Shown here one piece after another: positions 17,513 to 20,006 of a DNA stretch of 64,000 nucleotides. The translations under genes were made by a program, and so were the position numbers. The notes beneath the pieces are model-generated. The model did no database searches, was not told the DNA's origin, and saw nothing but the letters and a program-made list of their open reading frames with translations. Source of the DNA: Ancylobacter gelatini. Lineage in GTDB: Bacteria; Pseudomonadota; Alphaproteobacteria; Rhizobiales; Xanthobacteraceae. The stretch lies in NCBI RefSeq assembly GCF_022601675.1, contig NZ_JAKVIL010000003.1, positions 186,001 to 250,000 on the forward strand, written 5' to 3'. Each line of letters starts with the position of its first letter. Within the stretch, counting starts at the first letter, position 1.

Positions 17513-18103
17513 TCAGCCCTCCGGCAGCAGCATTTGCGAGCGCAGAAGCACCAGCCGGCCGCGCCCGACACGGGCGACCAGCCGGCGGGCGGCATGGGCA
17601 CCGGCCTCGTGGCCGCCGAGCGCCTCATAGAACTGGCGGTGGATCAGCAGGCCCTGCTCGGGCTTGGAGCGGCCGATCAGCGCGTGGCGCGCCACCGCCG
17701 TGGCTTCGCGCAGCCGCGGCTTGACGCCGAACCCGTCCAGCGCCAGCCGGAATGTCGCCGCGCGCCGGCTGACGCTCGCGGTGCGCTCGGCCTGATCGGT
17801 GAAGCCGCGCACCTCGCGCGCCCAGCCCTCCTGAAGCAGGCCTGCCGGGCTGATGAACAGCAGCCAGTGCGCCCGCGCCGCGCCGGCTCCCAGCCGCAGC
17901 CGCGCGCCGATATCAGCCGGGCCGTGCAGATATTCGCAGCCGGCGGCGTCGGCGATCTCGGAAATGCGTGAATTCGCCGGCGCCTCGGAATCGACCAGAA
18001 GCACTTCGCGGACAATGCCCGCGGCGGCGCCGGGAACCAGGGAAGCCAGGACCGGAATCAGGAGATTGTCGCTCTCGCGCGTGGGAATCACCACAGAGAT
18101 CAC
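17513..18103 (-). CDS. Family 2-like glycosyltransferase
   Basis: About 196 residues from a GTG giving VISVVIPTRESDNLL; this is where the GT-A fold begins, and the upstream reading frame (to 18223) lacks domain character. A nucleotide-sugar motif VLLVDSEAPANS replaces the usual DDGS and LLFISPAGLLQEGW sits where the DxD motif normally is, so catalytic acids are poorly conserved and activity is uncertain. The C-terminal half is Arg-rich. The acceptor cannot be guessed. It is divergent from the LexA-boxed radical SAM gene. Confidence 0.65.
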   Translation of the reverse strand: MISVVIPTRESDNLLIPVLASLVPGAAAGIVREVLLVDSEAPANSRISEIADAAGCEYLHGPADIGARLRLGAGAARAHWLLFISPAGLLQEGWAREVRGFTDQAERTASVSRRAATFRLALDGFGVKPRLREATAVARHALIGRSKPEQGLLIHRQFYEALGGHEAGAHAARRLVARVGRGRLVLLRSQMLLPEG

Positions 18104-18225
18104 GCGTTCAGCCACCCCTCGATATCCGGCCGTCCAGCGCCCGGAAAGCCGTTTCCCCTGACCTGAAACCTGCCTATCGCACAGGTTCCGCGACGTATAG
18201 CGGGCTGTGCCGCATTTCGACATAT

Positions 18226-18240
18226 GTTCTTGATATGTTC
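18226..18240 (+). promoter_or_regulatory. LexA (SOS) box of alphaproteobacterial type
   Basis: Exact GTTC-N7-GTTC, inside a longer 11-nt-spaced direct repeat of ATATGTTCT. This is the recognised LexA operator form in alphaproteobacteria. It ends 24 nt before the start codon of the radical SAM gene, so bound LexA would block its promoter or early elongation. Confidence 0.75.
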
Positions 18241-18264
18241 TCGTGTGCGGATTAAAAATGGCCG

Positions 18265-19521
18265 ATGGAACGACGCAGCCCCACTCTCACCGCCCATGAA
18301 CCCGGCGCTCCCGTGCCGCCCCGGCATCTCGGCCGGCTGGCACAGGAGCGGCGCGAGAGCCGCGAGCGCGAGGCCATGGAGGCCAGGCGGGCCGCCGAGC
18401 CGGACCCGCATCTCGAGGGCGAGATGGCGGTGAGCCTGCCCGTCATCGAGGCGGAACGCCGGCGCGGGCGCGGGGCGCTCTCCAATGCGCCTGGCCGCTT
18501 CGAGCCGCATGCGCGCGAAAGCTTCGACGATGGCTGGCAGAGCCTTGAGGACCTGCCGCCGTTCAGTGCCAGCGTGACGGTGGAGCGCGCCCGCACCATC
18601 ATCAATCGCAACCAGTCGCCGGATGTCGGCTTCGACCGCTCGATCAATCCCTATCGCGGCTGCGAGCATGGCTGCGTGTATTGCTTCGCGCGGCCGACCC
18701 ATTCCTATCAGGGGCTGTCGGCGGGGCTGGATTTCGAGACCCGGCTGTTCGCCAAGCCCGATGCCCCGGAGCTTCTGGCCAAGGAACTGTCCAAGGCGAG
18801 CTATGAGCCGCGCACCATCGCGCTCGGCATCAATACCGACGCCTACCAGCCCATCGAGAAGGAATGGCGGCTGACGCGGCGCATTCTGGAAGTGCTGCGC
18901 GATTTCGGTCATCCGGTCGGCATCGTCACCAAATCGTCGCTGGTGCTGCGCGACCTCGACATTCTCGCGCCCATGGCCGAGCGGGGCCTCGTCAAGGTGG
19001 CGCTCTCGGTCACCACGCTCGACCACAAGCTGGCGCGGCTGATGGAGCCGCGTGCGGCCACCCCCATGCGCCGCATCGACACGCTGCGTCGCCTGTCGGA
19101 AGCCGGCGTGCCGGCGGCGGTGCTGGTGGCGCCGGTGATTCCCGCCGTGACCGATGCGGAGATGGAGCGCATTCTCGACGCGGCGGCGAGCGCGGGGGCG
19201 AGCGAGGCCGGCTATGTCATGCTGCGCCTGCCGCTGGAAATCCGCGATCTGTTCAAGGAATGGCTGCTGGCGCATTTCCCGGACCGCTACCGGCATGTAC
19301 TGTCGCTGGTGAAGGAACTGCACGGCGGCAAGGAATATGACGCCGCCTTCGGCCAGCGCATGACCGGCTCGGGTCCCTATGCCTGGACCATGGCGCGGCG
19401 TTTCGAAATCGCCGTGGAGCGGCTCAGCTTCAACAAGCGCGCCCATCGGCTGACCACGCGCCATTTCCGCCGCCCCGCCCAGCCGGGGCAGCAATTATCG
19501 CTTTTCGGAGAGGAAGCCTGA
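18265..19521 (+). CDS. PA0069/SplB-like radical SAM protein with terminal clamp-binding-like motif
   Basis: A 418-residue radical SAM protein of the group related to spore photoproduct lyase (COG1533 type). The cluster motif CEHGCVYC (CxxxCxxC) is near residues 133-140, followed by GLDFETRLFAK and GINTDAYQPIEKEWRLTR typical of PA0069 relatives. A charged extension of about 100 residues precedes the core. The C terminus ends QLSLFGEEA, which matches the beta sliding-clamp consensus QL(S/D)LF. A LexA box lies directly upstream. Together these suggest a DNA-damage-induced repair or tolerance enzyme; the reaction is unknown. It overlaps the next gene by one base. Confidence 0.88.
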   Translation: MERRSPTLTAHEPGAPVPPRHLGRLAQERRESREREAMEARRAAEPDPHLEGEMAVSLPVIEAERRRGRGALSNAPGRFEPHARESFDDGWQSLEDLPPFSASVTVERARTIINRNQSPDVGFDRSINPYRGCEHGCVYCFARPTHSYQGLSAGLDFETRLFAKPDAPELLAKELSKASYEPRTIALGINTDAYQPIEKEWRLTRRILEVLRDFGHPVGIVTKSSLVLRDLDILAPMAERGLVKVALSVTTLDHKLARLMEPRAATPMRRIDTLRRLSEAGVPAAVLVAPVIPAVTDAEMERILDAAASAGASEAGYVMLRLPLEIRDLFKEWLLAHFPDRYRHVLSLVKELHGGKEYDAAFGQRMTGSGPYAWTMARRFEIAVERLSFNKRAHRLTTRHFRRPAQPGQQLSLFGEEA

Positions 19522-20006
19522 TGTCGTCAACCACCGAGGCGAAACAGCCCGGCACCGCGCCCGCCGTGCGGGCTTTGGCGCCCCTCCACCTCTCGCTGGT
19601 CACGCTGGGCGTGAGCGATCTTGCGCGCGCGGTCGCCTTCTACGAGGCGCTGGGGCTGGAGCGGAAGGTCAAGGGCGCGACCGGTGCCGCGTTCTTCATG
19701 GCGGGTGGCGTCGTGCTCTCGCTCTATCCGCGCCATGAACTGGCCGCCGATGCCGGGGTGCTGGACGGCCGGCCCGGCGCCTTTGGCGGCATAGCGCTCG
19801 CCTGCAACCGCGCCAGCCGTGCCGAGGTAGACACCACGCTGATCCGCGCGGTGGCTGCCGGAGGCCGCGCGCTGCGCCCGGCGCAACCGACCTTCTGGGG
19901 CGGCTATTCCGGCTATGTCGCCGACCTGGACGGCCATGCCTGGGAAATCGCGCACAATCCCGGCTTCGCGCTCGGCGCCGACGGACGCATCAGCCTGCCG
20001 GACTGA
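19521..20006 (+). CDS. VOC family protein, coupled to the radical SAM gene
   Basis: A 161-residue glyoxalase-fold protein. A flexible N-terminal extension of about 20 residues is followed by HLSLVTLGVSDLARAVAFYEALGLE and a C-terminal WGGYSGYVADLDGHAWEIAHNP, the arrangement of single-domain VOC proteins. Start and upstream stop share one base (TGATG), so it is probably translated with the LexA-boxed radical SAM gene. Whether it has a part in damage response or is only co-transcribed is unknown. Confidence 0.87.
   Translation: MSSTTEAKQPGTAPAVRALAPLHLSLVTLGVSDLARAVAFYEALGLERKVKGATGAAFFMAGGVVLSLYPRHELAADAGVLDGRPGAFGGIALACNRASRAEVDTTLIRAVAAGGRALRPAQPTFWGGYSGYVADLDGHAWEIAHNPGFALGADGRISLPD

Follow-up and report, generated by a model that had tools for sequence, protein, structure and literature searches.

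Several described systems stand close to the locus analysed here (the papers behind them are cited by PMC number). Spore photoproduct lyase (SPL) of Bacillus subtilis is a radical SAM enzyme that depends on two residues, C141 to donate hydrogen and Y99 for its radical relay (PMC3742179). In multi-chromosome alpha- and betaproteobacteria, namely in Rhizobiaceae, Brucellaceae, Rhodobacteraceae and betaproteobacteria, LexA boxes have been predicted on a gene named splB; its product was read as a spore photoproduct photolyase and presented as the first SOS-controlled enzyme of photoreactivation (PMC3323433). The same gene name, with COG1533, appears among the well-documented SOS genes in PMC8565304, where SOS control of rSAM_link_UDG (TIGR03916, COG4277) has also been published; the latter is a separate family, described as sharing a two-gene operon with a uracil-DNA glycosylase. 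The SOS proteins ImuB and Pol IV bind the beta clamp, as shown experimentally, and the binding residues of Pol IV are C-terminal (PMC3901139). The Caulobacter protein MmcA is an SOS-regulated, probable detoxifying enzyme (PMC9578287). SplB-like radical SAM genes are widespread in the SOS regulons of non-spore-forming bacteria.

The locus lies in a 64-kb stretch of the Ancylobacter gelatini genome, the whole of which is referred to below as the window. The radical SAM gene was assigned to the PA0069 type in a preliminary description of this DNA, and the assignment is borne out by a match to NF033668 (rSAM_PA0069) of 558.9 bits against a curated cut-off of 360, covering protein residues 67-414 and profile positions 1-348 of 348. 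The following features were recognized:

17513-18223, minus strand: divergent gene with a weak TIGR04283 glycosyltransferase match (58.3 bits, cut-off 182)
18226-18240, plus strand: LexA operator (SOS box) GTTC-N7-GTTC, GTTCTTGATATGTTC; exact match, conserved in orthologous promoters
18230-18235, plus strand: predicted -35 element TTGATA within the operator (sigma70-like scan)
18253-18259, plus strand: predicted -10 region, TAAAAA 17 nt or AAAAAT 18 nt 3' of the -35 element
18265-19521, plus strand: PA0069-family radical SAM gene (NF033668), 418 aa, predicted leaderless
18661-18684, plus strand: codons of the CxxxCxxC [4Fe-4S] motif, C133, C137 and C140, the sole cysteines of the protein
19492-19506, plus strand: codons of QLSLF, residues 410-414, conserved tail motif and putative binding motif for the beta sliding clamp (DnaN)
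19521-20006, plus strand: VOC/glyoxalase-fold gene (PF00903), second gene of the operon, its first base being the last one of the radical SAM stop codon

The divergent gene and the radical SAM gene have one intergenic region in common.

LexA box and promoter geometry

The GTTC-N7-GTTC box was said to end 24 nt before the radical SAM start and to be the only exact one in the intergenic parts of the window. Both statements hold: the spacer between the box and the ATG at 18265 occupies 18241-18264 (24 nt), and a scan of both strands gave a single exact match in the window. Since 100 shuffles of the window contained 1.20 exact matches on average, this single count is not significant in itself; it is position and conservation which place the box above chance. 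The whole genome holds 101 exact matches versus 34 for the pattern read backwards, from which it follows that the majority of them are no operators. Within a chosen subset of the genome (20 stretches with an AT-rich spacer of at most three G or C, and 30 loci), the box also occurs near lexA, ssb, ruvC, an SRAP gene, rSAM_link_UDG, a DnaE-type polymerase gene and an N6-methyltransferase gene, as well as near an ImuA-like gene (35.9 bits, cut-off 150). LexA itself is encoded in the genome (TIGR00498, 186.2 bits), with a box of the same type nearby.

A PA0069-family gene is present in 144 of the 149 genomes of the GTDB family. The promoter set comprised 127 promoters from 126 of these 144 genomes, 126 of them with upstream sequence, including that of a diverged second copy in one genome; two loci at the same contig end, with 23 nt upstream, were excluded from the counts. 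The box is found on the same strand in all 126. The second copy, with 51% identity, likewise carries it (GTTCTTGTTTTGTTC). Of the 144 genomes sampled from the class, 78 exceeded the family cut-off, and promoters were taken from over-cut-off matches only, three partial or broken loci giving none. The exact box occurs in 67 of these 78 promoters (own genome counted) and the reverse-read control in 1/78; the 11 misses consist of six boxes with one mismatch and an AT-rich spacer, one exact box on the opposite strand and four promoters with nothing. Named genomes carry it in 79 of 80 cases, the single miss being a contig end.

A different pattern was obtained for the other classes of the phylum (n=32 promoters), where GTTC-N7-GTTC is absent (0/32) and the E. 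coli-type patterns, tabulated in PMC9578287, take its place: CTGT-N8-ACAG in 23/32 and CTG-N10-CAG in 27/32, against 1/78 and 16/78, respectively, of the alphaproteobacterial promoters. Judged by these promoters, LexA control of the PA0069 gene is retained across the classes although the LexA motif has changed. The preliminary description had staked LexA control on the presence of the box in orthologous promoters, and with 126/126, 67/78 and 79/80 the claim is supported; sequence data could hardly make the control more certain. It is also already known in kind and not new, because it was predicted for splB (PMC3323433). Sinorhizobium meliloti and Paracoccus denitrificans, both named in a figure legend of that paper, possess PA0069-family genes, and we infer that the published splB is the PA0069 gene. 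A literature search for PA0069 combined with LexA or radical SAM returned no paper. PA0069 of P. aeruginosa is reportedly touched on in a study by Cirz from 2006.

The geometry of the promoter is equally regular within the family. The TTG at the -35 place inside the box is kept in at least 68 of 69 promoters (column frequencies 1.00/1.00/0.99), 124/126 show 'TA' at box offset 26 or 27, and an in-frame ATG follows 23-25 nt 3' of the box in 112/126; SD-like sequence was found in 3/113. Because of the spacing of the 'TA' and the ATG from the box, the transcript start is predicted on or adjoining the ATG. The operator overlies the predicted -35 element of what is apparently a leaderless promoter, and the leaderless mRNA would begin at 18265. 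Class promoters have the ATG 20-28 nt from the box in 51/66, and the geometry fails in 15/66 (the A. gelatini locus was left out of the class sets for geometry and tail). A leaderless start as a family-wide rule was rejected, since 32 of 79 named loci, for the most part in Rhizobiaceae, have no in-frame start within 60 nt of the box.

C-terminal motif and a second SOS radical SAM family

The window protein ends in ...PGQQLSLFGEEA, a tail including the pentapeptide QLSLF, which we take to be the consensus beta-clamp-binding pentapeptide (QL[SD]LF-type). The strict form Q[LM]x[LM][FL] is present in the last 20 residues of 144 out of 157 distinct alphaproteobacterial proteins and of 16/30 proteins from other classes, and the relaxed form in 157/157 and 30/30, respectively; the background, ORF segments of the same loci, gave 2/1915 (strict) and 50/1915 (relaxed). 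For this set, duplicates over the last 200 aa were merged and one 11-residue fragment with an in-frame stop was dropped. The tail in other classes often reads QGxLF or QQxLF, a weaker match, so that 14/30 fail the strict form. Behind a variable linker, Q410 is present in all sequences (43/43) and L413 in almost all (40/42). A pentapeptide of the presumed QL[SD]LF type thus sits in a flexible, conserved tail, which places the protein among the candidate clamp binders; the tail motif occurs in none of the five true SPLs (PF20903 matches), and DnaN is encoded in the A. gelatini genome. Its putative binding of the clamp would set the PA0069 protein beside ImuB and Pol IV, which are likewise SOS proteins. 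In contrast to the PA0069 protein, these two belong to a polymerase family and not to the radical SAM enzymes, and their docking is experimental.

Analysis of the whole genome revealed 13 radical SAM ORFs (14 Pfam matches). Box and motif occur together only in the PA0069 gene and in rSAM_link_UDG, and the other 11 ORFs have neither the LexA box nor the tail motif. The rSAM_link_UDG gene of this genome (C13:550300-553400) carries a GTTC-N7-GTTC box and a C-terminal QMELF. All eight class members of this family over the cut-off possess both box and motif, seven in the strict form and one as the hexapeptide QLSLAF. Although separate, the two families have in common (i) an SOS box; (ii) a radical SAM repair candidate; (iii) a clamp-type motif at the C-terminus. 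A second SOS radical SAM family with the same ending suggests a general design and makes an accident less likely. The two families may form a class of clamp-docked radical SAM DNA-repair enzymes, opened by LexA upon damage and carried by the clamp to stalled forks or gaps, where a base lesion would be reversed or tailored through the 5'-deoxyadenosyl radical, with a chemistry other than that of SPL; we regard the odds of this wider proposal as even.

Proposed mechanism and the VOC-fold neighbour

The leading explanation, with a probability of about 0.68, is that the gene encodes a radical SAM enzyme of DNA repair that is induced by the SOS response and docked on the sliding clamp, and that is not a classical photoproduct lyase. 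It starts from features directly present in the sequences (the box and its conservation, the promoter geometry, the operon, the absent SPL residues and the conserved tail motif), from which we infer LexA binding, induction, the leaderless start, docking on the clamp and action on DNA. LexA bound to GTTC-N7-GTTC over the -35 element would keep the promoter shut. After DNA damage, RecA would trigger the self-cleavage of LexA and the operon would be transcribed, probably as a leaderless mRNA. The first product would be a radical SAM enzyme with an SPL-like barrel whose QLSLF tail docks on the beta sliding clamp, and which would therefore act where clamps remain on damaged DNA. Its 5'-deoxyadenosyl radical would be directed at a DNA lesion or a modified base without the Cys/Tyr hydrogen relay of SPL. 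The second product, the VOC-fold protein, may detoxify an agent that damages DNA.

What is new is this mechanism, an SOS-induced and putatively clamp-docked radical SAM enzyme without the SPL hydrogen relay. For the clamp, the comparison covers the text of PMC3765255, PMC3323433 and PMC8565304, in which the word 'clamp' does not occur. Sections 7-8 of PMC3323433 make no mention of missing SPL residues, of a VOC partner or of a leaderless promoter, and the words clamp, glyoxalase and leaderless are absent from its text. A docking tail, if true, would tell where the enzyme works, set it apart from spore photoproduct lyase and make its place of action testable at the scale of one residue.

The VOC gene follows the radical SAM gene in 26 of the 30 closest family loci and adjoins it in 9 of the 28 best loci of the phylum set (one genome being also in the family set). 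In the class set it adjoins in the own genome only (1/30; 0/29 for the others), and an ancestral operon membership of the VOC partner, with the own locus as the one case among 30 class loci, is unsupported. Elsewhere in the class, 3 of 27 VOC homologues have a GTTC-N7-GTTC of their own; these three lie apart from the radical SAM gene, with the box 40-54 nt 5' of the match. The nearest named case is Caulobacter MmcA, a standalone gene whose product belongs to the glyoxalase superfamily; for the VOC gene of the window, the comparison with MmcA goes as far as membership of the PF00903 superfamily. The mmcA gene is said to have been studied by Lopes-Kulishev in 2015.

The presence of this partner bears on an alternative in which LexA does bind the box, yet what the enzyme modifies under stress is tRNA, a protein or a small molecule, and the VOC protein assists it in detoxification. 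Such substrates are common among radical SAM enzymes, the frequent VOC neighbour among the closest loci suggests small-molecule chemistry, and a nucleic-acid-binding domain beyond the barrel was not seen. The restriction of the clamp-type tail to the two SOS radical SAM families, with none in the other 11 ORFs, and the SPL-like fold argue against it, and we consider a substrate other than DNA unlikely.

Relationship to spore photoproduct lyase

The preferred reading, a clamp-docked repair enzyme, differs from a conventional, SOS-regulated spore photoproduct lyase (SplB), which would repair thymine dimers as the 2012 paper reads the gene (PMC3323433). The structural comparison favours the lyase. 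An AlphaFold2 model of middling quality (37 sequences, pLDDT 66.5, pTM 0.66) was searched with Foldseek, and the top five entries, with E-values between 1.3e-7 and 9.1e-7 and TM-scores of 0.50-0.51 relative to query length, were all structures of spore photoproduct lyase; SkfB came next (1.5e-5). The nearest solved fold, SPL (PDB 4FHC and others; PMC3742179), has in common with the PA0069 protein the radical SAM barrel, the CxxxCxxC motif and the tyrosine preceding the third cluster cysteine, and the gene goes by the name splB in PMC3323433 and PMC8565304. At the sequence level, however, searches of the PDB with phmmer and with a 43-row profile retrieved no SPL chain (E <= 10), and Pfam SPL (PF20903) matches neither the window protein nor anything in its genome.

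The residues on which SPL chemistry depends are also lacking. The three cysteines of the window protein are the cluster ligands C133, C137 and C140, and no fourth conserved cysteine was found in the 37- and 43-row alignments. When the SPL segment FEAACTSD is aligned by eye to IALGINTD, Ile189 takes the place of the cysteine. The place of the relay tyrosine (Y99 of B. subtilis SPL) is occupied by F141, with Phe in 36/43 and Tyr in 7/43 of the rows. A non-conserved cysteine at position 182 is present in 14/43 relatives, 42 residues past the third cluster cysteine as compared with 43 in SPL, and may serve as donor in those 14 proteins. True SPLs, which do not have the clamp-type tail, coexist with PA0069 proteins in two genomes (G314 and G419); the box is found at none of two true SPL genes (PF20903) and at all three PA0069 genes of G314, G419 and G413. 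The label 'SplB-like' of the preliminary description consequently holds for the predicted fold only, and fails for the hydrogen-donor cysteine, the relay tyrosine and the Pfam SPL match. Set back by these residue tests and by the Pfam mismatch, a classical SPL is an improbable identity for the enzyme.

That the GTTC-N7-GTTC match is due to chance or is the site of another regulator is scarcely credible: the shuffled-window average and the 101 genome-wide matches would permit it, but conservation in place (126/126 and 67/78), the switch of LexA-box type in the other classes and the same box at lexA speak strongly against it.

Two further identities were rejected. A defence gene was dismissed as PADLOC gave no match. 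A horizontally acquired or phage gene was dismissed as the 10 phage or virus records found match only 35-60% of the protein with identity below 40%. The distant virus-encoded relatives of the PA0069 protein include Dulem virus 36 and Acidianus bicaudaviruses, and phrog_13321, a PHROG of unknown function, is matched at 4.7e-49. Elsewhere in the A. gelatini genome (C14:412900-416100), the box GTTCATTCTATGTTC lies 45 nt 5' of an ORF matching N6-adenine methyltransferase and Eco57I-type domains, a possible SOS-linked DNA modification gene.
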